This document shows, piece by piece, positions 30,166 through 53,292 of a stretch of DNA of 62,462 nt. Within the stretch, counting starts at the first letter, position 1. Each line of letters starts with the position of its first letter. Under the pieces are notes generated by a model. That model saw only the letters and a list, made by a program, of their open reading frames with translations. It had not been told where the DNA came from and did not search any database. This DNA comes from Eubacteriales bacterium (GTDB lineage Bacteria; Bacillota; Clostridia; Lachnospirales; Lachnospiraceae). The stretch is taken from contig JAUNCI010000008.1 in the NCBI GenBank assembly GCA_030526665.1, positions 1 through 62,462 of the forward strand, in the 5' to 3' direction. The position numbers were made by a program, and so were the translations under genes.

Positions 30166-30326
30166 TTATAAGCAGGTCTTCTGACTTACGCAGTAACGTT
30201 AAATTCGCCTTCTCACGAGTACTGTTCGCAATGGCATAGCAATGAATTTAACTTCACGTATACAGCAGCACGACTGTTCAGGATTCACACCTGATTCCCT
30301 TTTCACTATTTAAATAGAACTTATAA
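30166..30326 (-). promoter_or_regulatory. Cobalamin riboswitch (class I, AdoCbl type)
   Basis: Read on the minus strand, the core elements are in order. TTATAAG opens P1, then come AAAAGGGAATCAGGTGTGAA, TCCTGAACAG and the CTGCTGTATACGTGA segment. GCGAACAGTACTCGTGAG follows, then GTAAGTCAGAAGACCTGC, the strongly conserved 3' box, and finally CTTATAA closing P1 (7 bp, plus positions 30166-30172 with 30320-30326). No T-run terminator follows, so control is probably at translation of the leucine-rich-repeat gene 44 bases downstream. Confidence 0.9.
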
Positions 30327-30425
30327 CTGAAAATGCAAAATATACATTTTATTTGTGCTTTTTTTAGTTGTAAAATTAAGTGTATAAATTATATAAAAAT
30401 CCGTGGAAAAAGTCAAATGAGGGAA

Positions 30426-30454
30426 TTGACAGAAGTGAGAATGTAAAGTATATT
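30426..30454 (+). promoter_or_regulatory. Promoter of the first surface-protein operon
   Basis: A perfect -35 TTGACA (30426-30431), a 17-base spacer and TATATT (30449-30454). Transcription would start near 30461, about 37 bases before the riboswitch-like RNA. Confidence 0.8.
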
Positions 30455-30497
30455 TTAAATAACTATTCGCATTAAATTATAAATAAATATATGAAAA

Positions 30498-30661
30498 ATA
30501 TACTACGAATGGGCGGAATTCCCATACAGATGAAGAGCACTGCTGTACAGTCAGCGTGTGGTGTGTTTTTATAATAAGATAGAGCAAGGGTTCGTGCTTA
30601 AAGAACGACTATCAGGTAACAGGAAACCTCTGAAAAGGGGCTATTTCTGTTACCTTTTTTT
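30498..30661 (+). promoter_or_regulatory. Cobalamin-riboswitch-like RNA with terminator, copy A
   Basis: A structured leader closely matching the one at 42817-42983. ATACTAC pairs with GTGGTGT to close a junction. Inside are a TGGG/CCCA stem whose loop and flank (CGGAATT, then TACAG) match the cobalamin-riboswitch P4 region, and a CAC-GCTG/CAGC-GTG hairpin with a TACAGT loop. Next are a GATAG/CTATC stem enclosing AGCA/TGCT and AAAGAAC. The last part is an intrinsic terminator, AGGTAACAG (30613-30621) with CTGTTACCT (30646-30654) and eight T residues. I assign it to the short class II cobalamin riboswitches with moderate confidence. Confidence 0.65.
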
Positions 30662-30845: not shown

Positions 30846-30851
30846 ATGAAG

Positions 30852-33800
30852 ATGAAAAGAAAACGTTATCAATTGTTGATGAGTACACTTCTTGCCGCAA
30901 GTATGACAGTGCAGTCGCCAATGTTGGCTCTTGCTTCTGACTTTGATGAAGCACAGATTTCAGCAGAAGTTTTGGCGGATGAAGGCGCACAGAGTGCTGA
31001 AATGTGGGATGAAACAGACTCTGCAGACGAAGCGTTTAAAGAAGACTCTGAAGCAGAAGAATTTGTCGAGGATGAGGAAGATGTCGATGCGGAGGAAGAT
31101 GCAGAAGGCACGGATGCAATAGACGACGCGGAAGATTTTGAAATTTTTGAAGACGAAGAAGATGATTTTATCAGCGAAGCAGATACTTTGGAATCCGATC
31201 TCAGTTATTCGGTTAAAGTGGCTGCTGTCGGAGATATTTTAGATGGATATCTGGTAACGCCGCAGACGGTTACTGTTGGAGCAAATGAGGCGGAATCCTA
31301 TGGCTTTACAGATCTGGAAGGCGATTATGTAACGACTCTGGACGTCTTGGTTAAAATGCATGAGATTACGTACGGAGATAGTTTTACTGCAGAAACAGCA
31401 TCCAGTTATCTGGGCGTTTCCTCATCCGGTTATATCAATAAATTATTTGAAACATCAACCGGAAATGTAGGTTTTACGGTAAATGGAATCGTACCAAACG
31501 ATGGCGTGGTAGGAGATTACGGATATGACGGCTATACGGTAGATCAGGCCGTTGTAACAGAAAATGATGATATCTTCTTTTTCCTGTACCAGGATTCTGA
31601 TGCAATGGACTATATGGGATGGTTCGTGGATGAGAATGGAGTCAAAAAGACTGAGTTTGAGGCGGAAGCGGGAACACCTCTTACCATTGGCTGTAAAGGA
31701 TATGAGTCTTTCGGATGGAATTATTTAAGTCCGGATCTGGAAGATCATGTTACAGAAATTTCCTATGCGACGATTATGTCTGCATTAGAAAGCGGTGCTC
31801 CGGATGGTGTAGTAGTCTCTGAACCAACAGATGAAGATGGCATGACAACGCTGACCTTCGAGGAAGCGGGTGAATACTATATCATCATGCATGCCGACGA
31901 GGATGAATATCCGATTATTTCTCCGATTGCAAAGGTTACTGTTACGGCACCATTTGCTCTGGAAGGCGATGGAACAGAAGAAAATCCATATATTCTGTCA
32001 TCTGCAGAAGGACTGACTTATGTATCCGATAAGGTAAATAATCAGGGAGAAACATACAATGGCTGCTATTTTGCAATAACAAAAGATATTACTTTGCCGG
32101 AAGGCTGGGAGCCGATTGGAAAAAGAATCGATAATAAAACCGTTCACCGTTTTGGCGGATACATTGATGGCGGAGATCATCTCCTGACGATTCCGGCCGG
32201 CGAGAAATGTCTGTTGGGAAATACCGCAGGTGCAAAACTGGAAAATCTGAACATCTATGGAACACAGATCGCTTCTGCAGGTGTCTTGGAAACCTATGAA
32301 GTTGGAGTAACACTTGACTGTTCAAATGTAACATTGAAATCAGGAACACAGACTCTTATGTCAGGATTCCTTGGAGGATACGGAAACGAATCAGCCAATA
32401 TTACAAATTGTACCGTTGAGGAAGGTGTTGTTATTGGTTACAACAAGGATCAGACCAACATCGGATCTTTTGGCGGTGATTTTAATGGAACTATTACAAA
32501 CTGCAGCAGTGCAGCGACTGTTTATGGCGTAAATTATGTCGGGGGTATCTGTGGCAACAAAGGGCAGTCCATGAGAACTTACAAAATTTTGGACTGCACA
32601 TTTACCGGAACGGTAGAAGCAAGCGGTAATTATGTCGGCGGTATTTCCGGCGGCGGATACGGCGGAACCAGATGGGGAATTGATACAGCACCAAATACAG
32701 GAACCGCTACAATTGAAAACTGTGAAGTTTATGCAGATATCACAGGTGCAAATTATGTTGGCGGTATTCTGGGTGCAGAACCTGGCGTTGTACAGACATG
32801 GAACAATGGAATCGGATCTATTAAAAATAACTATTTCAACGGAACTGTTACAGCAACAGAAGAAGCAGCATATGTAGGCGGTATTATCGGATACTTCCAT
32901 GGACTGGATCGTTACAACGAAATCGCAGAAAACGTATATAACTGCCAGGCTGATGTAAAAGGTATTGGACATATCACTTATATCGATACAAACTATGAAA
33001 ATCCGGCAGCTGTTGAAGGTGTAACTTATTACAATACAGAAAATGGAAAACCGGATTTTAAAATCGCTTATTGTTCATTTAAGCAGGATCATAACAGAAC
33101 GGATGATCCGTTAGGTGCAGATGCAGATTTACTTGCAAGACGTGAAAAAGCCAAAATTCAGGTTACGGCTTCTTTATTTGGTGATGATGTTCATGACAGT
33201 GATAAGGATGGTGCTGTACATACAAATAGAGGTCATAATCTGACCGAATGGGCAGCAGCAGAAACTTATACAGTTTATGAGGACGCATATGTCATTGATG
33301 TATTTGAAGCAATGGCTGAGAAATACGGTCTGACATTTGAAAATGAATCCGGTAATTATATCCAGTCTATTACAAAAGATGATGTGGTACTTGGCGAATT
33401 CACAAACGGAAAGAATTCCGGATGGATGTATACCTTAAATGGAGAATATCCGGATTATGGTGTGGCAGAACAGCATGTTTCAGCTGATGACGTATTGGTA
33501 TTCCACTATACCGATAACTACAACAGAGAGTTCCTGCTTGATACTCCTGTACTGACCGGTGTTTCCTATGCGGCCGGCGGTGTGAAAATCGCCTGGGAGC
33601 CTGTTAACTGGGCAGAAAAATATCGTGTGTTCCGTAAAGAAAAAGGTGGTAACTGGAAAAAGGTTGGAGAAACAGAAAATACAAGTCTGATTGACACGAC
33701 AGGTAAGACTAATACCACCTATACCTATACGGTTCGCTGCATTTCCGCTGACGGAAGTTATTATGCAAGTGAATATGACAAAAAAGGCAAATCAATTCGT

Positions 33801-34352
33801 TATATTCCTTCCGGTGTAATTACTTCACTGAAATCAGGTGCTTCAGGCATTACCGTTACATGGAAAAAAGTTGCAGGAGCACAGTCTTATGTTTTGTATC
33901 GTGCAGACGGCTCCGGAAAATTTGCGGTACTGGCTACTGTGAAAGGTGCAAATACAGTAACCTATGCGGACAAAAAAGCAACCGCAAATGGACAGAAATA
34001 TAAATATGCGGTACGTCCGGTCATTGGAAAAGACAAAGGATACTACATCGCAAAAGAAACATACTATTTAGCTGCTCCGAAGATTTCAAGCGCAAGCAAC
34101 AATAAAGCAAAATCCATAAGTGTTGCATGGAATAAAAACGCCAAAGCCGCAGGATATCAGGTTTACTATAAAACTAGCGGATCTGCTGCAAAAACAGTGA
34201 CGATCAAAGAGAACACAAAACTGAACACATTGATTTCTTCGCTGAAAAAAGGCACATCTTACAATGTATATGTTCGCAGTTACATTACCGAATCCGATAA
34301 GAATTACTATTCTGCTTGGAGTCCGGTAAAGACTGTAAAAATATCAAAATAA
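30852..34352 (+). CDS. Exported GLUG / DUF4430 / Fn3-like surface protein
   Basis: Surface protein of about 1166 residues. A signal peptide (KRKRYQLLMSTLLAASMT) is followed by a very acidic stalk (about 30-115). Next is a first domain (about 116-260) that resembles a transcobalamin-type DUF4430 fold (VTTLDVLVKMHEITYG, VGFTVNGIVPNDG, DDIFFFLYQD). GLUG repeats follow (about 430-700; NYVGGISGGGYGG, AYVGGIIGYFHG). A clear DUF4430 domain (about 770-893) contains YVIDVFEAMAEKYGL and SGWMYTLNGEYPDYG. Three Fn3-like repeats close the protein (about 897-1166). No LPxTG, SLH or membrane helix is seen at the C-terminus. DUF4430 is the beta domain of intrinsic factor and transcobalamin, so with the riboswitch upstream a corrinoid-binding role is inferred. 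The ATG at 30846 abuts GGAGGG; 30852 is preferred. Confidence 0.85.
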   Translation: MKRKRYQLLMSTLLAASMTVQSPMLALASDFDEAQISAEVLADEGAQSAEMWDETDSADEAFKEDSEAEEFVEDEEDVDAEEDAEGTDAIDDAEDFEIFEDEEDDFISEADTLESDLSYSVKVAAVGDILDGYLVTPQTVTVGANEAESYGFTDLEGDYVTTLDVLVKMHEITYGDSFTAETASSYLGVSSSGYINKLFETSTGNVGFTVNGIVPNDGVVGDYGYDGYTVDQAVVTENDDIFFFLYQDSDAMDYMGWFVDENGVKKTEFEAEAGTPLTIGCKGYESFGWNYLSPDLEDHVTEISYATIMSALESGAPDGVVVSEPTDEDGMTTLTFEEAGEYYIIMHADEDEYPIISPIAKVTVTAPFALEGDGTEENPYILSSAEGLTYVSDKVNNQGETYNGCYFAITKDITLPEGWEPIGKRIDNKTVHRFGGYIDGGDHLLTIPAGEKCLLGNTAGAKLENLNIYGTQIASAGVLETYEVGVTLDCSNVTLKSGTQTLMSGFLGGYGNESANITNCTVEEGVVIGYNKDQTNIGSFGGDFNGTITNCSSAATVYGVNYVGGICGNKGQSMRTYKILDCTFTGTVEASGNYVGGISGGGYGGTRWGIDTAPNTGTATIENCEVYADITGANYVGGILGAEPGVVQTWNNGIGSIKNNYFNGTVTATEEAAYVGGIIGYFHGLDRYNEIAENVYNCQADVKGIGHITYIDTNYENPAAVEGVTYYNTENGKPDFKIAYCSFKQDHNRTDDPLGADADLLARREKAKIQVTASLFGDDVHDSDKDGAVHTNRGHNLTEWAAAETYTVYEDAYVIDVFEAMAEKYGLTFENESGNYIQSITKDDVVLGEFTNGKNSGWMYTLNGEYPDYGVAEQHVSADDVLVFHYTDNYNREFLLDTPVLTGVSYAAGGVKIAWEPVNWAEKYRVFRKEKGGNWKKVGETENTSLIDTTGKTNTTYTYTVRCISADGSYYASEYDKKGKSIRYIPSGVITSLKSGASGITVTWKKVAGAQSYVLYRADGSGKFAVLATVKGANTVTYADKKATANGQKYKYAVRPVIGKDKGYYIAKETYYLAAPKISSASNNKAKSISVAWNKNAKAAGYQVYYKTSGSAAKTVTIKENTKLNTLISSLKKGTSYNVYVRSYITESDKNYYSAWSPVKTVKISK

Positions 34353-34375
34353 CAGGACAGGAAAAGAGGACATTT

Positions 34376-37300
34376 ATGAACATAAACGGAAAACATACAA
34401 ATAGATGGCGTTTTCTGGCATGGCTGCTGACTGCAGCCATGGTCTCATCAAGCAGCAGTGTAACTGCATTTGCTGAGAATTATGAAAACGCAGAGCTGCT
34501 CTTGGCAGAGGAAACATGGGAATCGGATAGTGAAGCAGCTGATACTGAATTCGATGAATTTGACGTATCGGATGAAGAAACACAGGACGATGTTACAGAT
34601 AATTTGGGGGAAGAAGACGCAGAAACAGATGCGGATTTTGAAGATGGTTTTGACGCAGAAACAGATGCTGAATTTGGTGATGATGGGGATTGGATCAGCG
34701 AAGCAGAATTGCTTTTGGATGGTGAGGAACCAACAGAAACTACGTTTGAATCATTCTTCACAGCATTAAATGGCTATGCCACAGTTACCAACGACAGTGC
34801 ATATCCGTATCAGGCTGCTATGGATGGTGAAAATTCGTGTCTGAGCAGTACCAATAAATCGGTGTCCAGCAAAGATGCAAGTATATCTCTTGTTGCGCAA
34901 TCACCGATTATTTTGACATTTTCATATCGTATCAGCAGTGAACCAAGATATGATTATATGAAGGTTGTGCTCAATGGAACCGATGTGACTGCAAAAAATA
35001 AAGCGGATTACAGTGGATTGCAGACAGAGTACTCTACCTATTCGATTAATTTGAATGCGGGCGATCAGCTGCGTATCGGATATTACAAAGATTCAGGCGG
35101 TGACAAAGGAGAAGATACACTTTATCTGCGTGATTTCAATGCAGAGTTGATGTATACCATATCTTTTCCAAATATGCCTGAGGGAAGCACAATTACATTA
35201 AAAAATGAAGACGATGAGTCAATTGCGGTTGCAGGCAAAAGCGCTGCAGTCAGCAATGGTACTTATAGCTGGACAGCAGAGTGCTTCGGATATGTAAGCA
35301 AATCCGGAACCATTACTGTAGAAAATGCAGACGTGACAGTGGGGGATGTGCTGGAGGCTGCTTCCGGTCACAGTGTGAAATTTAATGTTACCGGTGAAAT
35401 GGATGGATATCCATATACCATCGCTATTCTTCACGATAATGCAGCAGTAGATGCTGAACTGGATCAGGAAAACAGTGTAACATTGCTTCCGGCATCTTAT
35501 ACTTACACAATCACAGGTGAGGGATACAAAAAAATAGCAGGATCATTCACGATCGAGGAGGAAGCTCTGGTTATTGACTGCACACTGGAACCGGTCGCTG
35601 TTCTTAGCGAATATCTGGCAGATCTTCTGGCTGTGTCAGAAATGACGAACGATGCGGAATATCCATGGGTTGTAGATGAAGACGGAACAAAGATCTACTC
35701 TACAAACCAGAAAAAAAGCAACAGTAAATCAGAAATCAGTTTCACATTTACGAGACCGGCAATCGTTTCCTTTGTATATGAGGTTTCGTCTGAAAAGAAT
35801 TATGACAAACTGATTATTGAAAAAGAAGCTGCAGGAGTCATCAGTACGGTTGCAGGTCCATTCAGCGACAATAATGGTATTTCCGGAAATGTAACTGCAA
35901 ACTTTTTGGCTGGTGAAACATTAAAACTTAGATATCAGAAGGATTCCGGCGGAGATAAAGGAACCGATACCGCATCTGTTTCCGGAATTCAGGTAACCGA
36001 TCTGTATCAGATCACATTTGAAAATGCACCACAGGGCGCAGTAATTACGTTAAAAGATACTGAAGATCAGAATGTTGAGATCGTAAATGGAGTTGCCAGT
36101 GTTCGTGCAGGAAGCTATACCTATACATCCGAAGCCTTTGGATATGCAGTAGTTCAGGGAACCGTTGATGTTTCTGAGGATACAACCGTTGATCTGACGG
36201 CGCAGGCACTGGAAGGCAAAAAAGTTACTTTTGTAATCGGCGGACTTGCAGAAGGTGTGATTCCTCAGATTACAGTAAAACACGGGGATGTATCATTTGA
36301 AGCAGACGAAGAGGGCGCGTATTCTCTGGTTCCTGCAGAGTACACCTATCGTGTAAAAGCAGAGGGTTACAAGACAGCCAGAGGAAGCTTTACCGTAGAA
36401 GAGGAAGATCTCGAGATTCCTGTTGATATGGATGAAGGAAATGAATGGGAAGGTGAAGTCGCAGAAGAATATGCAGGCGGTACCGGAACAGCAGATGATC
36501 CATATCAGATCGCAAATGGTGATCAGCTGGCATTTCTTTCCGCACAGGTTGACGCCGGAACAACTTATGCAGGACAGTATTTTGTTCTGACCAAAGATGT
36601 TTTGATGGGGAATGAGGCTGCATTTACTCCAATTGGCTCCAGCAAGACAAAAGCATTCCAGGGTACTTTTGATGGACAGGGATATACGATCAGTGGTCTG
36701 AAAGTAAACGGTGCAAGCAACAGTGGCTTGTTCGGATATACCATCAATGCAGTCATTCGAAATCTGACAGTAAATGGAACTATTTCAGGTGAGAGTTATG
36801 TTGGCGGTATTGTTGGATACGGCAGTACTACAACGATAGAAAACTGTGCAAACTATGCGTCAGTTTCAGGTAGAGGAACAAATATCGGAGGTATTGCCGG
36901 CTGGTTTGAAAAAGGAACGATCCAGAGATGTTATAACAAGGGAAGTATTTCCGGCGGCGGCTCCAACTATAGTTACCTTGCCGGTATCGTAGGAAATCTA
37001 AGAGACCAGGCAGTTCTGCAAGAATGCTACAACACCGGTTCTGTAAATATTACAGGAAAAGCCGGCGGTATTGCAGGTATTGTATACAGTGCGACAGTGA
37101 AACAGGCATATAATGTGGGATCTGTAGCAGGAACAGGAGACGCCTGCTCCATTATTGGATATTGCGGCAGCAATGTAACAGCTGACAGCTGCTATTATTT
37201 AAGCGGAACCAAAGCAACTTCAGATGGTAAAGGTACAAATATGCACGAAGAATCTGCGGAAGAAATGGCAATGGCATCAACCGTTGCAGGACTTGGCGGA

Positions 37301-42782: not shown

Positions 42783-42816
42783 TTTAGAACATTTAAATAA
42801 CGATAAAAAAAGAATA

Positions 42817-43037: not shown

Positions 43038-43050
43038 GGTCTTTGATGAT

Positions 43051-44436
43051 ATGGAAACAAAAAAGAAGAAACGAATCTTAAATATTCTGATGATCGTAAT
43101 GATACTTATCATTGCGGGGAGTGGTGTCCTGGCGGTCGGAAGCTTAAAAGGATGGTTCGGCGGTAAAAAACAGACACAGATTTATTGTGATTCGGTAGTT
43201 GGGATCGCAAATATAGAAAGATGCGGTGTGGGATATTCACTGAAAAAAGATACGGCACTGGCAGAACAGGATCTGATAGAAACACGCCAGGGATCTTCGG
43301 CGAAACTTCGGATTCGAGAAGATCAGGAATTGGTTATGAACCAGAATTCAGAATTAAAAATTCTCACGGCATCTGATCGAGAAATCATTTTGAAACTCAA
43401 TAAGGGAGAAATCCTTGCGGATACTGCACAGATTTCATCCGGGATGAAAGTTTCCTTTGAAGGCATAAAAGAATTTGATGAAATAGAAGCAGAGGCACAA
43501 TCTGCCGTATTTTCACTCAGCGTACAGAGTGGAAGTGCACAGGTGAATGTTTTCAAAGGAGCTGTATCTGTTTCTGCCGGAACGGATACAAAACAGACGG
43601 TCAGAGAAAAAGAATCGCTGTTGATCGTGAATGGAAATATGACCAAAGGAGAACTGCATCCGGAGGAACTGAATGAGTTTTTGATTCAGCAGCTCCAGAA
43701 CTGCAAAAATGCAAATCAGATCGTTTTTTCTTCTGAAGAACTTCAGAAAATAGTAGATGATCGTGAAGCACAAAAACAGGCTGCATTAGAGGAAAGTCTG
43801 AATTCCGGCATATATGTTTCTGCAAAAGAGAATAATGAGACAAATGAGAGCAAAGCGGATGAGAATAAAACAGATGCACATCCGACCAAAACACCGGCGA
43901 ATTCTGAGAAACAATCCGATGGTTCAGTTACCGTAGAAACAGAACAGTCGGTTGAAGATTCGGATGATGCGGACACAAACAATGAAGAGGCAGAAGATGT
44001 ACAGGATGATGCAGATAATGAAAATACATCGATTCGTACATGCACGATCCAAATCGTATGTGACACGATTTTAGACAATCTGGATAACTTATCAGATGGA
44101 AAAGAAGCCTATGTTCCGGCAAATGGCGTGATTCTGGCGACCAGCACGGTAGAATTCAATGATGGAGAAACTGTATTTGATGTTTTGAATCGCGTATGCA
44201 GCGCTGCAGGTATTCATCTGGAATACTCCTGGACGCCGATGTACAACAGTTATTATATCGAAGGAATTAACAATCTCTATGAATTCGACTGCGGAAATGA
44301 ATCCGGCTGGATGTATAAAGTAAATGGATGGTTCCCGAATTATGGATGTTCTTCCTATACATTGGAAGATGGTGATTCTATCGTATGGTGTTATACATGT
44401 AATGGACTTGGTGCAGATGTCGGCGGTGGAATGTAA
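43051..44436 (+). CDS. Membrane-anchored FecR-like / DUF4430 protein
   Basis: About 461 residues. One N-terminal transmembrane helix (ILNILMIVMILIIAGSGVLAV) leaves the rest outside. Residues about 40-210 look like a FecR domain (GSSAKLRIREDQELVMNQNS, LKLNKGEILADTAQ, VFKGAVSVSAG). A low-complexity Glu/Asp/Asn linker (about 240-335) leads to a C-terminal DUF4430 domain (about 340-455; ETVFDVLNRVCSAAGIHLEY, ESGWMYKVNGWFPNYGCSS). FecR domains normally sense siderophore receptors in Gram-negative bacteria; here the domain is extracellular and its partner unknown. The start at 42997 would read through the repeat, so the ATG at 43051 is used. First gene of the riboswitch-controlled ECF operon. Confidence 0.85.
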   Translation: METKKKKRILNILMIVMILIIAGSGVLAVGSLKGWFGGKKQTQIYCDSVVGIANIERCGVGYSLKKDTALAEQDLIETRQGSSAKLRIREDQELVMNQNSELKILTASDREIILKLNKGEILADTAQISSGMKVSFEGIKEFDEIEAEAQSAVFSLSVQSGSAQVNVFKGAVSVSAGTDTKQTVREKESLLIVNGNMTKGELHPEELNEFLIQQLQNCKNANQIVFSSEELQKIVDDREAQKQAALEESLNSGIYVSAKENNETNESKADENKTDAHPTKTPANSEKQSDGSVTVETEQSVEDSDDADTNNEEAEDVQDDADNENTSIRTCTIQIVCDTILDNLDNLSDGKEAYVPANGVILATSTVEFNDGETVFDVLNRVCSAAGIHLEYSWTPMYNSYYIEGINNLYEFDCGNESGWMYKVNGWFPNYGCSSYTLEDGDSIVWCYTCNGLGADVGGGM

Positions 44437-44453
44437 TAAAAGAGGATGATAGC

Positions 44454-47400
44454 ATGCGAAAGAAAAAAATATGGAAGATTCTGATCGGCACTGCTGCAGC
44501 GGCTCAGATAGCAGTGCTCCCGACGCTTTCTATTATAAATAACAATCATGAAGCATATGGACAGGATAATAGTCTGGAAATATATGATAAAGAGGAAGAG
44601 GACTCTGTTTATGAAAATGCTTCCTCAGATGAAGAAAGAAACGAAGACCAAAACGAAGTGCAAGGTGAAGCTGACGGAAGTAATAGCATCGATGGTGATG
44701 TGGCGGTATCGGATTCTTCTGAGGATAATGCTTTAGAAAAAGTGGAAGAGCAGGAAAACGAAAATAGTGAATCTGCGGAAACGAACGAAGAAACGGATGA
44801 AGAGGAACCCCCGGATGAAGAGGAAAAACCGGATGGTTTATCGGTGCATGCACAGATAGAAGTATCTCTGGCAGATGGAACGATCTGTAATCTGGCAGAG
44901 CAGTCTGTTCCTTCAGAATTGGAATGTAACGGGATTTCTCTGCCTGCAGACTATGCGGATGGTGTATTTAAGGTAGCAGTACCGGAAGGAACGGATTCTT
45001 TGCAGATTGCAGCACATCCATCTTTTGATGAAAATGAAACCATTCAAATGCCGTTCTTTTTTTCAGGCTGGAAAGGGTATTTGTGGCAGGACGAAACAGA
45101 ATGGAAATTATATCCGGAGTTTTTGGGAAATGAAGAATATGTGTATGCAACAGATACGTTTGATGCAGAAGTGACAACGTGGCTGGTGGACGAGATAGAC
45201 GGCGCGGCACAAATTTCATTAGAAGATTTTATTATTTCTGAAGACAGCTTTTCACAGGAACAACAGCAGGTATACGGAGAATTGGATTTTGAATCCTTTT
45301 CCTATGCCGAGATATGTATCGGATATTTTGATGAAGACGGGGAACGATATGAAAATTCGATTTTGCTTGTTGAAATTCCATCCGAAAACGCGGGAAAAAA
45401 CACAGTCGATGTCGCTGAAGAACAGGCTGCAGAAACAACAGAAAATCAAACAGAAATCACAGAAGAAGGCACTGTCCTGCAAAATGATGTTCTGCAGGCA
45501 GCTGAAATTCCGGATAATACAAAAGCAAATGAACAGTACCAGAAAACAGGAGAGTATCTGGTAAAAACAGCAAAAGACAAAACGCTGACTGTTAACTCGA
45601 TCGGAGGCGAATGGTCAGTTATCGGATTGGTACGCAGCGGGCAGAATGTAGATCAGAAGGTTTATGAGACCTATTTGAACAATCTGGAACAGGTACTGAA
45701 AAAGAAAAATGGAGTACTGCACAGCAAAAAATATACAGAATATTCCCGTGTTGTACTGGCGTTGACAAGTTTAGGAGAGGATGTAACCGATTTTCGCGGA
45801 TATAATCTGCTCGAGCCGCTTGCAGATTTTGACCAGGTCGTATGGCAGGGAATTAACGGTGCATCCTGGGCGCTGATTGCAATTGATTCTCATAATTATG
45901 AAATTCCTGCTGCAAAAAGCGGGAAAAAGCAGACGACCCGAGAGGCATTGATTAATCACCTGCTGGAAAATGAGAAAAACGGCGGCGGATGGGCGCTCGG
46001 AAGCGGAAATGCCGATGTCGATATCACAGCGATGGTGATTCAGTCGCTTGCACCGTATTATGATTCAAATGATAAAGTGAAAGCTGCTGTTGACAGAGGA
46101 CTGAAAAAACTGAGTACTATGCAGAAAAATAACGGGGATTTCGGTACAACATACGGAGGAAAAACGGAGAACACTTCCGAGAGTTGTTCGCAGGTTCTAG
46201 TTGCCCTCTCTGCATTAAAAATTGATCCTGAAACAGACAGACGATTTATCAAAAACGGAAAAAGTGTTTTAGATGCACTGCTCAGTTACAAAAAAGGTCA
46301 GGGATTTTCGCATGTGGCAGGCGGCGACCAGAATGGTATGGCTACTGAACAGGCATATTATGCGCTTGCATCCTATGAGCGTTTCAAAAACGGAAAAACA
46401 TCATTGTATAATATGAGCGATATTGAGGTACCGGAACCGACGATTACGCCGAGACCGACACCGGATCCATCGAAACCTACAGTTACACCGGAACCAACAG
46501 GTGCGCCAAATCCAACAGGCGGCCCCAAACCAACAGCGGCTCCGAAGCCTACGGTGACGCCCAAACCGACACCTACACAAAAAGCATCCAAAAAACCGAC
46601 AGGAAGTACGAAAACAGTTACATTGACAAATGGAACTTCGTCTGATAACAGCAAAGATGCAAAAAAGAAGGCAACAGATAAAAATGACAAGACAAAAGAA
46701 CTATCTTCGAAAAATATAAACGGTTCTACCGAAGCTGCCGGCAAGTCAAAGCAAAAGAATGAAAAAAAAGCAAATGATTCTCGTGGAACGACTACCGGCG
46801 AAGAAACACTGCTCACATTTAAAGATAGTCCAAATGTTTTGGCACGGAAGTATACAAATAGGGCCAGGAATCTTGCGAAAGCGATGGGAACTCTGTATAT
46901 AGATCAGGGCAATCGAAAAGCACTGTTTGCAGATGAAGATGTGTCAGATCGGAAACTGCTGGAACAGATGAAGCAGATCTGGGATTCTTATGAATTGCTG
47001 ACAGAATCGGAAAAAGAAGCAATCTCTTCACATGCCCGTTTTGAAAACTTCAGCAGCAATATTGAACGTTTAAGAGCGAAAAACCATTATGATGAGGATA
47101 CGACCATCAGTGTTCGGGATAATGAAGAAGCTCAGCTGCCATGGTATGTTCAGTTGAGAGTAGTCCCGGAACTTCCGGACAGTACAATGGAACAGAATCT
47201 GCAAATGATTTTGGGAGAGCAAAGTAAAGTATTACATCTGTGGGATATTCAAATGTATGATCCGATTCAGGACAAATCATGGGAACCACAGGAAATTATT
47301 CATTTACAGATTCCGATGGAACCGATGGGAGACTATGATCAGATTATAGTGGTTCATATCACGCAGGACGGTACATTTGAATTTTTGGACAGTGAATCGC

Positions 47401-47588
47401 AGGGTGAAGTTATTCATACAGATACGGTAGGATTCTCACGATATGCAACAGTTGGTATTCATGGATCAATTGAAAATCTGTTAGAACCGGTGAATACAAA
47501 AAATAATACGCTGTTATGGATCCTTGGCTGTGGAGGTGCAGCGGCGATTCTTCTCATAATTTTAATAGCAGTCAGGAAAAAAATATGA
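44454..47588 (+). CDS. Membrane-anchored alpha-toroid (intrinsic-factor-like) surface protein
   Basis: A 1044-residue protein with a signal peptide (KIWKILIGTAAAAQIAVLPT), an acidic stalk (to about 130) and a beta-rich region. An alpha/alpha-toroid domain follows (about 375-650), with prenyltransferase/squalene-cyclase-type repeats (GASWALIAIDSHNY, NADVDITAMVIQSLAPYYD, SESCSQVLVALSAL, MATEQAYYALASYERF). A Pro-Thr-rich linker (about 665-710), a Lys/Asn-rich part and a C-terminal beta domain come next. It ends in a transmembrane helix with a basic tail (LLWILGCGGAAAILLIILIAV, RKKI), so it is held in the membrane. The toroid is the alpha domain fold of intrinsic factor and transcobalamin, whose beta domain fold is encoded in the gene just upstream. 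Its stop overlaps the EcfT start (ATGA). Confidence 0.85.
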   Translation: MRKKKIWKILIGTAAAAQIAVLPTLSIINNNHEAYGQDNSLEIYDKEEEDSVYENASSDEERNEDQNEVQGEADGSNSIDGDVAVSDSSEDNALEKVEEQENENSESAETNEETDEEEPPDEEEKPDGLSVHAQIEVSLADGTICNLAEQSVPSELECNGISLPADYADGVFKVAVPEGTDSLQIAAHPSFDENETIQMPFFFSGWKGYLWQDETEWKLYPEFLGNEEYVYATDTFDAEVTTWLVDEIDGAAQISLEDFIISEDSFSQEQQQVYGELDFESFSYAEICIGYFDEDGERYENSILLVEIPSENAGKNTVDVAEEQAAETTENQTEITEEGTVLQNDVLQAAEIPDNTKANEQYQKTGEYLVKTAKDKTLTVNSIGGEWSVIGLVRSGQNVDQKVYETYLNNLEQVLKKKNGVLHSKKYTEYSRVVLALTSLGEDVTDFRGYNLLEPLADFDQVVWQGINGASWALIAIDSHNYEIPAAKSGKKQTTREALINHLLENEKNGGGWALGSGNADVDITAMVIQSLAPYYDSNDKVKAAVDRGLKKLSTMQKNNGDFGTTYGGKTENTSESCSQVLVALSALKIDPETDRRFIKNGKSVLDALLSYKKGQGFSHVAGGDQNGMATEQAYYALASYERFKNGKTSLYNMSDIEVPEPTITPRPTPDPSKPTVTPEPTGAPNPTGGPKPTAAPKPTVTPKPTPTQKASKKPTGSTKTVTLTNGTSSDNSKDAKKKATDKNDKTKELSSKNINGSTEAAGKSKQKNEKKANDSRGTTTGEETLLTFKDSPNVLARKYTNRARNLAKAMGTLYIDQGNRKALFADEDVSDRKLLEQMKQIWDSYELLTESEKEAISSHARFENFSSNIERLRAKNHYDEDTTISVRDNEEAQLPWYVQLRVVPELPDSTMEQNLQMILGEQSKVLHLWDIQMYDPIQDKSWEPQEIIHLQIPMEPMGDYDQIIVVHITQDGTFEFLDSESQGEVIHTDTVGFSRYATVGIHGSIENLLEPVNTKNNTLLWILGCGGAAAILLIILIAVRKKI

Positions 47589-48475
47589 CAAATAAAGATT
47601 CATTTACAGAATATCATCCTATCATTAATTTTATGTTTTTTATAGGTGCTATTGTGTGCGGAATGTTTTATATCCACCCTTATTTTGTCGGAGTATCGGT
47701 ATTCTGTGCGGCAGCCTATCTGATTACGGTTCGAGGAACAAAGGCATTTTCGATTCTTGCGGGAATGTGTGGTGTGTTTATTGTTATCTCAATTATCAAC
47801 CCGATTTTTAACACAAACGGAGAACATGTTTTATGCCAACTGTTTGGAAGACCATATACTCTGGAGGCGCTTCTGTATGGTATGACGCTGGCTGGAATGA
47901 TGGTTTCTATCCTTCTCTGGTTTGTTTCGTATCAGACGGTTATGACCAGCGATAAATTCTTGTATTTGTTTGGCGGCTTGTCACCGGCTTTTTCACTTGT
48001 GCTCACGATGATTCTGCGTCTGGTTCCTAATTATCAGAAAAAAATAATGCAGATATCCGAGATACGAAAAAGTATTGGAAAATCAGCCGGAGATGGTACT
48101 TTGAGGCAAAAAACAGAACATGGAATAACAGTATTATCCGTTACCACTACCTGGGCACTGGAGGGCGGTATCGTTATGGCGGATAGTATGCAAAGTCGAG
48201 GGTATGGATGTGGAAAAAGAAGTCGTTTTTCAATATACAGAATGGGAAATGGGGATAAACTGCTTTTGATTCTAATGACATTACTTTTGACAATTACACT
48301 TGTATGCGGTGCAAAAGGGATGGCATCCATAACATTTGCACCGACGATACAAATGCACGGAAGCACTATGGTTCGAATCGGCGGCCTCATTGTATATATG
48401 TTATTTTTAATGCTTCCGACAATGATAAATATAAAGGAGAATGTGACATGGCACATTTTGAGATCAAAGATCTGA
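47585..48475 (+). CDS. ecfT: ECF transporter transmembrane subunit EcfT (first copy)
   Basis: A 296-residue membrane subunit that couples the ATPases to the S component. Helices are seen from about 14 to 115 and 235 to 290, with the long coupling region between. The second coupling motif is ADSMQSRGYG, and RLVPNYQKKIMQISEIRKS is in the coupling helices. The frame opens at 47516, but the ATG at 47585 overlaps the previous stop and gives the N-terminus EYHPIINFMFFIGAIVCG, shared with the second EcfT at 50841-51728. The ATPase gene starts 28 bases before its end, showing tight coupling. Confidence 0.93.
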   Translation: MTNKDSFTEYHPIINFMFFIGAIVCGMFYIHPYFVGVSVFCAAAYLITVRGTKAFSILAGMCGVFIVISIINPIFNTNGEHVLCQLFGRPYTLEALLYGMTLAGMMVSILLWFVSYQTVMTSDKFLYLFGGLSPAFSLVLTMILRLVPNYQKKIMQISEIRKSIGKSAGDGTLRQKTEHGITVLSVTTTWALEGGIVMADSMQSRGYGCGKRSRFSIYRMGNGDKLLLILMTLLLTITLVCGAKGMASITFAPTIQMHGSTMVRIGGLIVYMLFLMLPTMINIKENVTWHILRSKI

Positions 48476-50115
48476 CATTTTCCTATCCTGCAGCGGGTGA
48501 AAAAAAAGCACTGGATCAAGTGAATATCACGATTGAACACGGACAGTATGTAACGGTCTGCGGGCAGAGCGGCAGTGGGAAAACAACACTTTTGAAACAA
48601 TTAAAAAGTGTGTTGGCACCGCATGGGAAAAAAAGTGGAGAAATTCTGTTTGAAGGAACGCGTTTGGAAGAAGTGAATCTTCGAACACAGTCTTCAAAAA
48701 TTGGATATGTTATGCAAAATCCCGATAGTCAGATCGTTACGGATAAAGTCTGGCATGAACTGGCATTTGGCCTGGAAAGTCTTGGAATGGACCAGAAAAC
48801 AATGCGTTTGCGTGTTGCGGAGATGGCTAGTTACTTTGGGATTCAGGACTGGTTTCACCGGAATGTAACCGAGTTGTCCGGCGGCCAGAAACAGCTGCTG
48901 AATCTGGCTTCCATCATGGCGATGCAGCCTTCGGTTCTGATTTTGGATGAACCGACGAGTCAACTGGATCCGATTGCAGCTGCAGATTTTTTGAATACGA
49001 TTCGTAAAATTAATCGAGAATTGCGAACAACGATTATTATTACCGAACATCGTCTGGAGGATATTTTTTACGCTTCGGACAAAGTGATAGTAATGGAAGA
49101 AGGCCGAGTGATTGCGGATGAAGAACCCGGAAAAATCGGAGCTTTTCTAAAAAAGGAAAATCGCCGGATGTTTGCGGCAATGCCTTCACCGGTACAGATT
49201 TTCTATGGAGTAAATGGAACCGGCAACTGTCCGCTGACTGTTCGGGAAGGCGGTGCATGGCTGAGCAGGTATTTTGCCGGGAAAACACCGGAATACACTA
49301 CAGTGGAAGATAAAATTACGATTGATCCGGATGATGTCCAGAAGCCGGCGGTTTTGATGAAAGAAGTATGGTTTCGCTATGAAAAAAATGGAAAAGATGT
49401 TCTGAAGGGAACAACGATTCAGGTACCGGAAAATACATTGTTTGCTATTGTAGGTGGAAACGGAACCGGAAAGAGCACATCGCTGAAAATAATTTGCAAT
49501 ATCTGCAAACCATATCGCGGACATGTATATATTCATGGACAGCGTGTTGATAAAATTAAAGGAGATCGTCTGTTTAAACAAAATGTGGCACTTCTGCCTC
49601 AGGATCCACTGAGTCTTTTTGTAAAAAAGACGGTGAGAGAAGATCTGGAAGAAATGTGTGATCGTAATCTATCAGAAGAAAAAGTCAGAGAGATTGCGAA
49701 ATTATGTGAAATCGAGGAGATTCTTGAACAGCATCCATATGATTTGTCCGGTGGAGAACAGCAAAGAGCAGCATTGGCAAAAATCCTTTTGACAGAGCCA
49801 AAGATTCTACTGCTGGATGAGCCGACGAAGGGACTGGATAATTTCTTTAAAATACAGTTCGGAAAGATTATGAAACGTTTGAAGCAGCAGGGGGCCACCA
49901 TTATTATGGTTTCTCATGATGTTGAATTCTGTGCAAAGTATGCAGATCTTGTAAGTATGTTTTTTGACGGCGGAATTATTACGACCAATACTGCCAATCG
50001 ATTCTTTGCTCAGAATAGTTTCTATACGACTGCGGCCAATCGAATGAGTCGTCATGTTTTTGAAAATGCAGTAACAAATGAGGATGTGATTCAACTATGT
50101 CAGAAAAATCAATAG
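48448..50115 (+). CDS. ECF transporter ATPase, fused EcfA-EcfA'
   Basis: A 555-residue protein with two complete ABC ATPase domains in tandem. The first (about 1-235) has GQSGSGKTTLLKQ, LSGGQKQLLNLASIM and VLILDEPTSQLD. The second (about 300-535) has GGNGTGKSTSLKI, LSGGEQQRAALAK and ILLLDEPTKGLD. Fusion of the two ECF ATPases is common in Firmicutes with dedicated ECF systems. The ATG at 48448 has AAGGAG 8 bases before it; upstream in-frame starts lie inside ecfT. The S-component gene overlaps the 3' end by 19 bases. Confidence 0.95.
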   Translation: MAHFEIKDLTFSYPAAGEKKALDQVNITIEHGQYVTVCGQSGSGKTTLLKQLKSVLAPHGKKSGEILFEGTRLEEVNLRTQSSKIGYVMQNPDSQIVTDKVWHELAFGLESLGMDQKTMRLRVAEMASYFGIQDWFHRNVTELSGGQKQLLNLASIMAMQPSVLILDEPTSQLDPIAAADFLNTIRKINRELRTTIIITEHRLEDIFYASDKVIVMEEGRVIADEEPGKIGAFLKKENRRMFAAMPSPVQIFYGVNGTGNCPLTVREGGAWLSRYFAGKTPEYTTVEDKITIDPDDVQKPAVLMKEVWFRYEKNGKDVLKGTTIQVPENTLFAIVGGNGTGKSTSLKIICNICKPYRGHVYIHGQRVDKIKGDRLFKQNVALLPQDPLSLFVKKTVREDLEEMCDRNLSEEKVREIAKLCEIEEILEQHPYDLSGGEQQRAALAKILLTEPKILLLDEPTKGLDNFFKIQFGKIMKRLKQQGATIIMVSHDVEFCAKYADLVSMFFDGGIITTNTANRFFAQNSFYTTAANRMSRHVFENAVTNEDVIQLCQKNQ

Positions 50116-50837
50116 ATAATACAAAGAAAAAGAACAGTGTACGAAAATGTATCGTATGGATGCTTATTTTAATTCTTGTTCCCGCAACGCTGATCGTATC
50201 ATGGAAATATGGAAATCGTCGCTATTATTTAACCAGTGTTTTGGTAATTGTATATTCCATACTGGCATTTGTAATCAGCTTTGAGTCGAGAAAACCTCAG
50301 GCAAGAGAAATTGTGACAATTGCGGTAATGAGTGCTTTGTCAGTGGCTGCCAGAGCGGCATTTGCGATGGTACCGTTTTTTAAACCAAGTACGGCGATTA
50401 TCATGATCACCGGAATTGCGATGGGACCGGAAGCAGGATTTTTGACAGGGGCAGCATGTGCACTTGTCAGCAATTTTTTGTTTGGACAGGGTCCCTGGAC
50501 CCCATGGCAGATGTTTGCATATGGAATTGCAGGAGTAATTATGGGAGCTTTGGCAAAAACGGGAGTGGTTTCTGAAAAGAAAAAGCTGTTGACATCTGTT
50601 ATCGGTTTCGTCTGTGTGATGCTGATCGTAGGACCGATTCTGGATACCTGTTCTTTATTCACTATGAGTACAGAAATCTCAAAGGTATCGGTGACGGGGA
50701 TATATATGGCCGGAATACCGGTAAACGCAGTTCACAGTGCTGCGACATTTCTGACATTGCTGTTGTTTTGCAGACCTTTGGCAGAAAAATTAGAACGTAT
50801 AAAAATTAAGTATGGAATGATGGATGGAGAACAGTAG
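50097..50837 (+). CDS. ECF transporter substrate-binding S component
   Basis: A 246-residue membrane protein with six or seven helices. The core REIVTIAVMSALSVAARAAF, followed by MVPFFKPSTAIIMITGIAMGPEAGFLTGAACALVSNFLFGQGP and PWQMFAYGIAGVIMGAL, is that of an ECF S component, the part that binds the vitamin. Helix 1 has the small residues (AVMSALSVAARA) that pack against EcfT. An extra N-terminal helix pair (about 17-65) precedes this core. Substrate is not readable from sequence; the riboswitches and the intrinsic-factor-like neighbours point to cobalamin or another corrinoid. It lies between the ATPase and a second EcfT gene. Confidence 0.9.
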   Translation: MSEKSIDNTKKKNSVRKCIVWMLILILVPATLIVSWKYGNRRYYLTSVLVIVYSILAFVISFESRKPQAREIVTIAVMSALSVAARAAFAMVPFFKPSTAIIMITGIAMGPEAGFLTGAACALVSNFLFGQGPWTPWQMFAYGIAGVIMGALAKTGVVSEKKKLLTSVIGFVCVMLIVGPILDTCSLFTMSTEISKVSVTGIYMAGIPVNAVHSAATFLTLLLFCRPLAEKLERIKIKYGMMDGEQ

Positions 50838-50840
50838 AAA

Positions 50841-51728
50841 ATGGGATTTGAAAGTTATCATCCGATGATAAATTTTCTGTATTTTGCAGCAGCAATTATC
50901 TGTGCGATTTGGTTTAACCATCCTGTGTTCGCTGCAATTGCCTGGCTTTGTGCTTTTGTATTTTCAGTGAAGCGAAATGGAATACGAATGCTGGTTGGTA
51001 ATATCTGCCTGCTTGCAGCAGCATTTATATACAGCGGCTGGTATTCCTATTACCATCATTTTGGAGTGACAAAACTAAGAGTGAATTTTATCGGCAATGC
51101 AATCACTTTGGAAGCTGTATTGTATGGATTACAGAGAGGAATTACGGTGATCACGGTTGTAATGATTATGAGCTGTGTGTTTTCTGTGGTGTCTTCTGAT
51201 AAGGTGGTTTATTTATTTGGAAGAATCTCGCCTAAATTATCATTGTTTTTTTCAATTCTGCTGCGAAGCATACCGAAAATCAAAGTTCGGGCCGAAAAGA
51301 TCAGGCTGGCAAGAGCGGGAATCGGCAAAGACATCAGCAGAGGTAATATATGGAAACGAATCGTAAATCTGACTGCTGTTTTTTCAATTCTGATCACCTG
51401 GATCAGTGAAGAGTGGATAGAAAATTCTGCGTCTATGAAAAGCAGAGGATATTCACTGAAAGGAAGAACTGCTTTTTCTATTTATCGATTTGACAATCGT
51501 GACAGATTTGTAGTACTTCTGCTTTTTTTCTGTTATACTACTATTATTATGGCGGCTGCATTGGATCAGACCCATATATATTATTCGCCGGAAATCATAT
51601 GGAACCATATGACATTTATGTCCGGCTTTTTTTATGGCGCTTATGCATTGTTTCTCATGCTGCCGGTAATATTGGAATTATACGGTACATGGAAGCATCA
51701 TAAGGCGGCAAAAGAAGGAGTGGAATGA
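50841..51728 (+). CDS. ECF transporter transmembrane subunit EcfT (second copy)
   Basis: A 295-residue paralogue of the EcfT at 47585-48475. Both start with YHPxINFxxF, and both have an SRGY coupling motif followed by a GRTAFSIYRFD / KRSRFSIYRM segment. Here the coupling motifs are SMKSRGYSLKG and LRSIPKIKVRAEKIRLARAG. Two EcfT genes around one ATPase and one S gene is unusual: a functional heterodimer or two alternative partners are possible. It starts 3 bases after the S-component stop and overlaps the next gene by 4 bases (ATGA). Confidence 0.92.
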   Translation: MGFESYHPMINFLYFAAAIICAIWFNHPVFAAIAWLCAFVFSVKRNGIRMLVGNICLLAAAFIYSGWYSYYHHFGVTKLRVNFIGNAITLEAVLYGLQRGITVITVVMIMSCVFSVVSSDKVVYLFGRISPKLSLFFSILLRSIPKIKVRAEKIRLARAGIGKDISRGNIWKRIVNLTAVFSILITWISEEWIENSASMKSRGYSLKGRTAFSIYRFDNRDRFVVLLLFFCYTTIIMAAALDQTHIYYSPEIIWNHMTFMSGFFYGAYALFLMLPVILELYGTWKHHKAAKEGVE

Positions 51729-52297
51729 CAGATTATATTACAACTTATAGTGGAGTACATTTTTATCCAATGAATCCGGAACCGGAGATGGTTCGTATTC
51801 AGGATATTGCACATGCCCTTTCTATGATTTGCAGAGGAAACGGGCACGTAAAAACGTTCCTGTCAGTCGGACAGCATTGTATTCGATGTGCAAAGGAGGC
51901 GCAAGCCCGGGGAATGTCCGAACGAGTGGTATTGGGATGTTTACTGCATGATGCAGGAGAGGCATATATGTCTGATGTTCCCAGACCATTCAAGCAATAT
52001 CTGCAGGGATATGTTGAAATGGAAGAGAAGCTTCTCAGCATGATTTATATCAAATATCTGGGATCTGATTTGACAGAAGAGGAGCAAAAACTGCTGCGGC
52101 AGGTGGACGATGATGTTTTATATTATGATTTGAAAATTTTATTAAATGAACCGAGCGAAAAAACAGAACCGGAGATGAAAGTTCCATTCACTTATCAATT
52201 TGTTCCGTTTGAACAGATTGAGAAAGAGTATATGGAAATGTTTGAAAAAATACATTATAATATAAATAATAATTCGCAGTCAGGAGGGGAAAAATGA
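51725..52297 (+). CDS. HD-domain phosphohydrolase (YfbR-like)
   Basis: A 190-residue cytoplasmic metal-dependent hydrolase. Visible are ITTYSGVHFYPMNPEPEMV, RIQDIAHALSMICRGNGH (metal His), FLSVGQHCIRCA (metal His), GCLLHDAGEAYMSDVPRPFK (HD and catalytic Glu) and the late Asp in RQVDDDVLYYD. Family members act as 5'-deoxynucleotidases or related phosphohydrolases. Its place in an ECF vitamin operon, with 4-base overlaps on both sides, suggests a role in processing the imported nucleotide-bearing compound (cobalamin has a nucleotide loop). This is inference. Confidence 0.85.
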   Translation: MTDYITTYSGVHFYPMNPEPEMVRIQDIAHALSMICRGNGHVKTFLSVGQHCIRCAKEAQARGMSERVVLGCLLHDAGEAYMSDVPRPFKQYLQGYVEMEEKLLSMIYIKYLGSDLTEEEQKLLRQVDDDVLYYDLKILLNEPSEKTEPEMKVPFTYQFVPFEQIEKEYMEMFEKIHYNINNNSQSGGEK

Positions 52298-53292
52298 AGA
52301 ACAAATTTAGGAATAGAATTCTGATTGGACTGCTGACAGGAACGGTGATTTTCTCCGGATTCGCAAATGTATTTGCCGAGGATGCGGAAATGGACATTGA
52401 AACCATCGAACGTATGCAGAAAGAGGGTACTTTATCAGCACCATCAGAGGAAGGAACTCTATCAGCACCGACAGAAGAGGGGACGTTATCAGCATCTTCA
52501 GAGGAGGGAACTCTTTCACCATCCTCAAAATCAAGCATCTTCAGCGGTGTTCCGGAAACAACAGGAACAGATGAGAAAATGCAGGGACTTATGGAACAGC
52601 TTCAGAATTCTCTGCCAACATCAAACGGAAGCTGGTCCGTTTATGTGTGTGATCTGAAAACCGGATCCGAGGGAAGCATCAATAATCATGCAATGCAGGC
52701 AGCCAGTCTGGTTAAATTGTATATTATGGGTGCTATTTACGAAAATTATGACAATATTATAGCTGCATATGGAAAAGACAACGTGGATACAAACCTGTAT
52801 TATATGATCACAGTCAGTGATAATGATGCTGCAAATACATTGACGACATATCTTGGGGGCGGTGACAGCAGTACCGGTATGGCAATGGTAACCGGTTATG
52901 CCTCATCACATGGATTTGTAAATTCAAGTATGGGAAGACTCCTTTTGCACAGCAATGAATTTGGGGATAACTATACTTCCGTAGATGACTGTGGGCATCT
53001 GTTCCAGGCAATTATGGCCGGAGACTCTGCGGACTATCCGCATGCACAGGATATGTTTAATCTTTTGGCACAGCAGCAGCGCAGAAACAAAATTCCGGCA
53101 CAGCTTTCCGGTGTCAGCGTTGCCAATAAAACAGGCGAACTGGATACCGTTGAGAATGATGCAGGAATTATCTATAATGCGGCAAATGATTTGATTATTG
53201 TATTTATGTCTGAGCAGCTGAATGAAGTAGGAAGTGCACAGAATACGATCGCATCACTGAGCAAAATGATTTATGACTACTATAATTCATAA
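52294..53292 (+). CDS. Exported serine hydrolase (beta-lactamase fold)
   Basis: A 332-residue exported protein. Signal peptide (NRILIGLLTGTVIFSGFANVFA), then four tandem 9-residue repeats of the form EGTLSAPSE and the motif PSSKSSIF, then a class A beta-lactamase-like domain (about 95-332). It has SLVK (Ser138, Lys141), SDN (175-177) and KTG (279-281). The sequence around NGSWSVYVCDLKTG matches GGTWSVYIKELKGG in the larger paralogue at 24220-26436. More likely a cell-wall or ester hydrolase than a resistance enzyme. Last gene of the ECF operon, starting within the HD gene stop (ATGA). No clear terminator was found after it. Confidence 0.85.
   Translation: MKNKFRNRILIGLLTGTVIFSGFANVFAEDAEMDIETIERMQKEGTLSAPSEEGTLSAPTEEGTLSASSEEGTLSPSSKSSIFSGVPETTGTDEKMQGLMEQLQNSLPTSNGSWSVYVCDLKTGSEGSINNHAMQAASLVKLYIMGAIYENYDNIIAAYGKDNVDTNLYYMITVSDNDAANTLTTYLGGGDSSTGMAMVTGYASSHGFVNSSMGRLLLHSNEFGDNYTSVDDCGHLFQAIMAGDSADYPHAQDMFNLLAQQQRRNKIPAQLSGVSVANKTGELDTVENDAGIIYNAANDLIIVFMSEQLNEVGSAQNTIASLSKMIYDYYNS

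Follow-up and report, generated by a model that had tools for sequence, protein, structure and literature searches.

A candidate corrinoid capture-and-import locus of a Lachnospiraceae bacterium, with DUF4430 and toroid surface proteins and a CbrT-type ECF importer

We suggest that a locus of a Eubacteriales bacterium (Lachnospiraceae), in which genes for DUF4430 and alpha/alpha-toroid surface proteins stand next to an energy-coupling factor (ECF) importer and cobalamin-type riboswitches, is a corrinoid-repressed capture-and-import system. This is the best explanation of the locus as a whole, and we hold it to be likely. Corrinoid capture and import, taken by themselves, are predicted from sequence with high confidence. 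They are supported by the CbrT type of the S component, by riboswitch cores at homologous genes and by a two-domain relative that matches the animal B12 carriers. The corrinoid role proposed in an earlier note on this DNA is thereby upheld.

The DNA analysed, called the window below, is 62,462 nt long (assembly GCA_030526665.1, contig JAUNCI010000008.1, positions 1 to 62,462, forward strand), and the locus extends from 28375 to about 51728 (Table 1). On the minus strand the canonical cobalamin riboswitch is followed by the gene of a BspA-type leucine-rich-repeat (LRR) protein and by that of an AP_endonuc_2 TIM barrel. On the plus strand a compact leader (30498-30567) precedes two large surface-protein genes, and another (42814-42882) precedes the 43051 and 44454 genes and then those for T, fused A-A, S, a second T, an HD-domain protein and a beta-lactamase. 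The importer unit and the large surface-protein unit have separate compact leaders. Comparison was made with family genomes and with 80 named loci, the best 80 of 422 toroid relatives in the genome collection, including loci of Lachnospiraceae, Christensenella, Paenibacillus, Cohnella, Clostridium, Lutispora, Emergencia and Pelotomaculum.

Riboswitches

The earlier note had called three cobalamin-type riboswitches, and all three are confirmed. The canonical one, at 30339-30154 (-), matches RF00174 of Rfam with 96.5 bits (gathering score 31.5). Of the two compact leaders, that at 42805-42883 (+) reaches 30.5 bits (E 0.0018) with RF01689 (AdoCbl-II), under the gathering score of 36.5, and that at 30498-30567 (+) has no Rfam match. 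Model R1, built from both window leaders and one leader of a Blautia metagenome-assembled genome (MAG; L091), detects two further leaders that were not among its seeds, in L092 (E 4e-15) and L089 (E 6e-11), in a search of 98 of 135 sources (1.65 Mb). In the alignment of these five sequences, which was fitted to the model, 12 of 17 pairs are altered on both sides and 95.3% of the cells are paired. Either value is reached by none of 500 shuffles and approached by no slide; further pair types, a fourth measure, are equalled by 49 of 500 shuffles. The compact variant has a conserved three-helix fold with covariation, and each of its five copies stands ahead of a DUF4430 frame, at a distance of 83 to 279 bases.

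The hairpin loops in L092 and L089 are closer to the canonical core and bridge the compact and canonical kinds. Since RF01689 stays below its cut-off and these loops lead over to the canonical core, we file the leaders at 30498-30567 and 42814-42882 as cobalamin-type riboswitch variants, not as RF01689, and predict that they bind cobalamin. Strong hairpins with T runs stand behind both plus-strand leaders (z -4.5 and -4.6). Cobalamin riboswitches are reported as OFF switches (PMC11477304), and the compact leaders may exert OFF control here. Promoter-like sites occur ahead of all three aptamers, yet in no excess over shuffles (2 against 1.4; 4 against 3.4).

The earlier note had set all three riboswitches over the importer locus. 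This holds for the two compact leaders, but the canonical one is directed at the LRR and TIM-barrel genes of the minus strand (30122-28375) instead of the importer. The compact variant is rare: in 299 family genomes, searched with strict filters that may drop some copies, strong matches were found only in the window's own genome and a weak one (7e-4) in one other. A first motif scan for the compact leader, with 8 matches against 6 in reversed controls, was discarded; a tightened scan gave 3 matches against 0 in controls, two of the 3 being design sequences.

ECF importer

Pfam recognises the ATPase (204.5 bits) and the S component (57.9 bits), the latter under the name ECF-ribofla_trS. Profiles for the T, A, S, toroid and DUF4430 families were grown on family loci from the window proteins, and the alignments hold 24 of 26 toroids (A1), 34 of 60 available DUF4430 domains (A2) and 29 of 48 S stretches (A3). 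In the PDB, CbrT (6FNP) is the top match of the S family profile (1.3e-30), ahead of the second-ranked S component (4e-4) and of a riboflavin uptake protein (0.005); the window S sequence alone finds CbrT at 4.5e-8. CbrT is ahead of all other solved S components, which places the S component in the CbrT type, with cobalamin transport as its predicted function. CbrT transports cobalamin and cobinamide (PMC5997447).

The Pfam label, together with NCBIfam riboflavin and folate S models that score under their cut-offs (34.3 against 99 and 32.8 against 60), might speak for a system devoted to another ligand: flavin, folate, queuosine, haem or cobalt. However, CbrT is by far the best match among solved S components and the leaders are of cobalamin type, and we regard another ligand as very improbable.

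For neither T component does Pfam give a match, or NCBIfam a useful one. The first finds solved EcfT chains, including that of 6FNP, at 9e-5 as its sole type of PDB match; the second is 30% identical to the first, and the T family profile matches 21 of 55 sources. From the first T gene through the beta-lactamase gene the frames overlap or almost touch, as read from the coordinates. In L110, L128, L129, L137, L140 and other loci A and S are fused in a single frame.

DUF4430 and toroid surface proteins

DUF4430 (PF14478) is matched by the products of the 43051 and 30846 genes with 72.4 and 44.3 bits (cut-off 23.8). The toroid of the 44454 product stays below threshold in Pfam (SQHop_cyclase_C, 20.9 against 26.1 bits); its predicted structure has a predicted local distance difference test (pLDDT) of 93.5 and a predicted template modelling score (pTM) of 0.91, and the protein ends in a C-terminal transmembrane helix. 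The termini of this product, and the N-terminus of the 43051 product, were judged by eye. Hence DUF4430 surface proteins, a membrane-anchored alpha-toroid in the adjacent gene and an ECF importer in overlapping frames (T, A-A, S, second T), as originally called, are all present. Among the named loci, lipobox, LPxTG and C-terminal helix patterns account for anchoring in 24 of 188 DUF4430 or toroid frames.

In Foldseek the window toroid finds a fungal farnesyltransferase at rank 1 and transcobalamins at ranks 2, 3, 5 and further. The fold of transcobalamin and intrinsic factor is found for the toroid in the window and for both domains in the relative L141, described below. At the level of sequence, PF01122 (transcobalamin/intrinsic factor) does not match the window toroid at E 0.01; it matches 2 of 24 toroids (best 0.0027). 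No single chain of the window carries both folds, which are split over two proteins. This split had been put forward as the form of the system; it stands for the window but is not a general rule, as toroid and DUF4430 share a single open frame in 49 of the 80 named loci.

The DUF4430 profile finds the solved structure 3u7z (RUMGNA_00854 of Ruminococcus gnavus) at 2e-15, and transcobalamin-2, haptocorrin (transcobalamin-1) and intrinsic factor at 0.006 to 0.11. All 34 aligned DUF4430 domains have a conserved tryptophan that falls opposite a tryptophan of transcobalamin-2. A domain database describes DUF4430 as transcobalamin-like. RtpR requires B12. In L. rhamnosus, rtpR adjoins a DUF4430 gene (PMC9963975).

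Squalene-hopene cyclases carry the acid catalytic motif D-x-D-D. The motif aligns with the toroid, but its fourth position is D in none of 52 toroids, and the residues D162, D164, T166, Q106, N109, E217, Q221 and Q274 are each conserved in at least 47. The toroid is probably not an enzyme. This bears on the idea that the surface proteins strip corrinoids from carriers of the host or of neighbours, or process them with the toroid as an enzyme, import being secondary. Bacteroides BtuG does take B12 from intrinsic factor (PMC6143338), and enzymes are frequent among the toroids of the fold lists, but with the motif broken and an S component accompanying the module in 68 of 80 named loci we consider stripping or processing quite improbable.

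L141 is a Paenibacillus herberti protein with a signal-like start, a toroid, a 42-residue linker and a DUF4430 domain, which is the domain order of transcobalamin. For the model of residues 47-445 (pLDDT 90.8, pTM 0.78) the 15 best PDB matches in Foldseek are transcobalamin, intrinsic factor and haptocorrin (E 4e-10 to 6e-8), and the matches span both domains (413 to 448 columns). Its DUF4430 part finds 3u7z and the transcobalamin beta domain with template modelling (TM) scores of 0.70 and 0.74 by target length. The VIA comparison hardly covered L141 residues past 273.

Linkage in other genomes

Among 100 family genomes DUF4430 occurs in 46 (68 matches) and RF00174 in 83. RF00174 lies within 10 kb of 35 of the 68 DUF4430 matches, upstream on the same strand in 33 of these 35; the chance figure is about 1% per DUF4430 match, given an assumed 280 Mb per 100 genomes. 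In an even phylum sample a toroid match at E <=0.001 is found in 55 of 199 genomes, the window's own included. By sequence, relatives of this gene set are present in many Gram-positive bacteria.

The 54 fetched family loci comprise 26 short ones, in which DUF4430 adjoins an S gene (gene gaps -92 to 221 bases), 27 long ones with toroid and/or T, and one with DUF4430 alone. A toroid is present in 22 of the 54 and is fused to DUF4430 in 12 of these 22. A cobalamin riboswitch core was also seen in 16 of the 26 short units of DUF4430 and CbrT-type S (L055-L087). Among the 80 named loci DUF4430 is found in 78, T in 70, ATPase in 70 and S in 68, the ATPase count being an upper figure because its profile is unspecific and matches other ABC ATPases too.

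Riboswitch cores in these loci were searched with R2, a cobalamin riboswitch core model seeded with family loci and the window. As 31 of the 32 family loci matched by R2 were seeds, R2 is tested by the named loci only; L105 may overlap L073, which is in the training set, and further species overlap is possible. R2 gives 79 matches in the 80 named loci, 78 of them on the operon strand, and 62 of the 80 have a core upstream of a toroid or DUF4430 gene at a distance of at most 1500 bases (median 249). L130, L138, L160 and L162 have 2-5 cobalamin riboswitch cores per stretch. The survey of co-occurrence with B12 riboswitches that the earlier note had suggested comes out in its favour. A tie to another vitamin, or a lack of the toroid or DUF4430 fold, had been set beforehand as grounds against it; it is with cobalamin riboswitches that the homologous loci go, and both folds are present.

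We also considered that the importer is an ordinary CbrT-type one, with the toroid and DUF4430 proteins co-regulated for adhesion or wall anchoring and forming no clasp. Surface proteins often carry FecR, fn3, GLUG and LRR domains such as those encoded here. The toroid fold occurs widely and has no specificity, and the ECF haem transporter LhaSTA is reported to work without surface receptors (PMC7299338). On the other hand, the 26 short loci reduce to pairs of DUF4430 and S genes, 49 of 80 named loci encode toroid and DUF4430 in a single frame, and L141 matches the animal carriers over both domains. An adhesion or anchoring role in place of capture is therefore unlikely in our judgement.

Points against the capture-and-import interpretation

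Several results weigh against a capture-and-import system. By VIA Z the window toroid is closer to squalene-hopene cyclase (22.4) than to haptocorrin (18.7; 3.2 A, 248 residues), so that the fold alone is not decisive; the toroid fold is general and common to many other proteins, and the toroid sequence profile matches cyclases and gives no link to the animal B12 carriers. The matches of DUF4430 to the carriers are weak, a collagen chain scoring between them at 0.053, and DUF4430 is also matched in the control genomes of Lactococcus lactis and Methanosarcina acetivorans. The L141 model differs from holo-transcobalamin in how its domains are arranged (root mean square deviation 19.6 A, TM 0.42). 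This may be expected without ligand; the model as predicted thus shows no clasp. The structure models are of single chains, the window toroid and the L141 fragment.

As to regulation, the compact leader is absent from the single genome of the same genus that was searched, with strict filters. A core match in the upstream place is lacking in 18 of the 80 named loci, of which L089, L091 and L092 carry the compact variant while in L095, L111, L139, L155, L158 and L165 the stretch begins inside the first relevant frame. The host also has a cbi cobamide synthesis cluster (CbiD, CbiG, CbiJ, CbiB, CbiC and others), and corrinoid uptake need therefore not be essential. Finally, both the ligand and the riboswitch response are predictions.

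Proposed mechanism

The folds, the kinship of the S component, the riboswitch class and the conserved linkage were computed here, and on them we place the following scheme of corrinoid capture and import, in which ligand, OFF direction, clasp, hand-over and remodelling are put forward as suggestions.

Step 1: With a shortage of cobamides the terminators behind both compact riboswitches would not form. This would derepress the large wall or surface proteins, one of them with DUF4430, the membrane-anchored DUF4430 protein (beta half) and the membrane-anchored toroid (alpha half) of a transcobalamin-like binder, and the ECF importer with its CbrT-type S component.

Step 2: On the outside of the membrane the DUF4430 and toroid proteins would catch cobamide or cobinamide, most likely between them. 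The alpha and beta domains of human transcobalamin, when separated, assemble only upon addition of cobalamin (PMC5599065), which makes a clasp of two chains chemically possible. We give the clasp between toroid and DUF4430 an even chance.

Step 3: The caught corrinoid would be handed to the S component and then pumped inward at the expense of ATP. The divergent unit under the canonical riboswitch would supply the LRR surface protein and the TIM-barrel enzyme, which may strip foreign lower ligands so that CobT, CobU and CobS could rebuild the cobamide.

In a wider and tentative form, which may well prove wrong, Bacillota would use a corrinoid-induced clasp of toroid and DUF4430, on one chain or on two adjacent anchored ones, to capture cobamides at the surface and feed a CbrT-type ECF importer, and the animal carriers would share a two-domain ancestor with it.

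Divergent unit and host

A relative of the LRR gene lies in L091 at 5709-6587 (-) (phmmer 4e-86) and is likewise under a minus-strand riboswitch core. The product of the 28375 gene belongs to the AP endonuclease 2 fold family (PF01261, 35.2 against 31.1 bits), and relatives of it were found in three other genomes among 100 family genomes. In L182 the relative (2045-3070, -) comes last, after a cobalamin riboswitch and genes for Peripla_BP_2, FecCD and ABC ATPase, an arrangement that resembles a BtuFCD operon. In L128, a named MAG, it lies at 8060-9034 (+) between the DUF4430 and toroid genes of a DUF4430/toroid/ECF set. Three genomes, the window's included, have the TIM barrel with cobalamin riboswitches or corrinoid uptake genes; for the relatives in L178 and L184 inspection of neighbouring open frames by eye gave no corrinoid gene. 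CbiR of Akkermansia, a cobamide-remodelling hydrolase, is of the same AP endonuclease 2 superfamily (PMC7733943). Some TIM-barrel relatives stand among corrinoid genes, and the 28375 product may be a cobamide-remodelling enzyme of the CbiR type.

The host genome (1.55 Mb, 92% complete) has lower-ligand genes of cobT, cobU and cobS type, a protein that combines B12-binding with pterin-binding domains, and a radical SAM protein of the B12-binding kind. With its cbi cluster, the host probably both makes and imports cobamides.

Features of the locus

Table 1. Coordinates and evidence for the features of the locus and the end of its operon.
Feature	Position	Strand	Evidence and remarks
Canonical cobalamin riboswitch aptamer	30154..30339	-	RF00174, full model 1-189; precedes divergent LRR/TIM-barrel unit
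BspA-type LRR protein	29304..30122	-	PF13306 190.5 bits; first gene below canonical riboswitch
AP_endonuc_2 TIM barrel, candidate CbiR-type cobamide-remodelling hydrolase	28375..29262	-	PF01261 35.2 bits
Compact cobalamin-type riboswitch, copy 1	30498..30567	+	R1 seed; covariation over five sequences
Terminator-like hairpin and T run, copy 1	30614..30661	+	-21.9 kcal/mol, z -4.63
Large secreted surface protein, DUF4430 and fn3	30846..34352	+	PF14478 44.3 bits, fn3 31.6 bits
Giant surface protein (GLUG, aBig_2, fn3), in line behind 30846 gene	34376..42673	+	Pfam
Compact cobalamin-type riboswitch, copy 2	42814..42882	+	RF01689 30.5 bits, below cut-off 36.5; R1 seed
Terminator-like hairpin and T run, copy 2	42927..42983	+	-24.1 kcal/mol, z -4.50
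Membrane-anchored protein: N-terminal hydrophobic helix, FecR-like, C-terminal DUF4430 (beta half)	43051..44436	+	PF14478 72.4 bits, PF04773 34.3 bits
Signal peptide, alpha/alpha toroid (residues ~385-638), C-terminal transmembrane helix (alpha half)	44454..47588	+	Predicted structure, pLDDT 93.5; fold matches
ECF T component 1	47585..48475	+	Solved EcfT 9e-5
Fused double ECF ATPase	48448..50115	+	TIGR04520 357.7 bits, two stretches
ECF S component, CbrT type	50097..50837	+	Best PDB match 6FNP (CbrT)
ECF T component 2	50841..51728	+	30% identity to T1; matched by T1's profile
HD-domain protein, operon end	51725..52297	+	PF01966 19.2 bits, below cut-off 22
Beta-lactamase-fold protein, operon end	52294..53292	+	PF13354 112.3 bits

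In the 34376 product no DUF4430 was found with Pfam and the family profile. For the HD and the beta-lactamase gene, which close the operon, phmmer gives no relative among the 80 named loci, and both may be passengers. Genes with beta-lactamase-fold domains stand on both sides of the locus (24220-26436 and 52294-53292). Elsewhere in the window, a thiamine pyrophosphate (TPP) riboswitch at 19128-19234 (+) scores 55.4 bits, barely over the Rfam cut-off of 54.3.

Relation to known systems

With animal transcobalamin, intrinsic factor and haptocorrin the locus shares an alpha/alpha toroid and a DUF4430-type beta domain, and L141 shares with them the same order of domains, here joined by its 42-residue linker. 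Unlike these carriers, the proteins of the locus are bacterial, at the cell surface, on two chains in the window and linked to an ECF importer, and the window toroid is without a PF01122 match. ECF-CbrT (CbrUVT), listed as a B12 importer in gut genomes (PMC6593275), is similar in its S family and its T and A subunits; however, the two T genes and the extracellular DUF4430 and toroid proteins of the locus are undescribed in the available parts of PMC5997447 and PMC6593275. BtuG of Bacteroides is similar to the proposed role, as described in PMC6143338, in capturing B12 at the surface ahead of an importer, but it is part of a Gram-negative uptake system of BtuB type. The DUF4430 relative 3u7z is titled 'putative metal binding protein', a title without a corrinoid role, and resembles the DUF4430 of the short DUF4430 and S pairs; it may be a corrinoid binder.

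In the open literature, judged from listings and excerpts and with subscription papers and preprints outside the search, we found no paper in which surface proteins with DUF4430 or of transcobalamin-like kind take part in corrinoid uptake by bacteria. Nor did the open literature, as far as it was accessible, yield an account of corrinoid capture outside the membrane by Gram-positive bacteria.

Surface capture of B12 is known from Bacteroides through BtuG, and the locus offers candidate proteins for it in Gram-positive bacteria. It gives definite proteins, a two-domain candidate in L141 and a control RNA. It also suggests a function for DUF4430 and for the solved structure 3u7z, and it raises the question of bacterial relatives of the animal B12 carriers.

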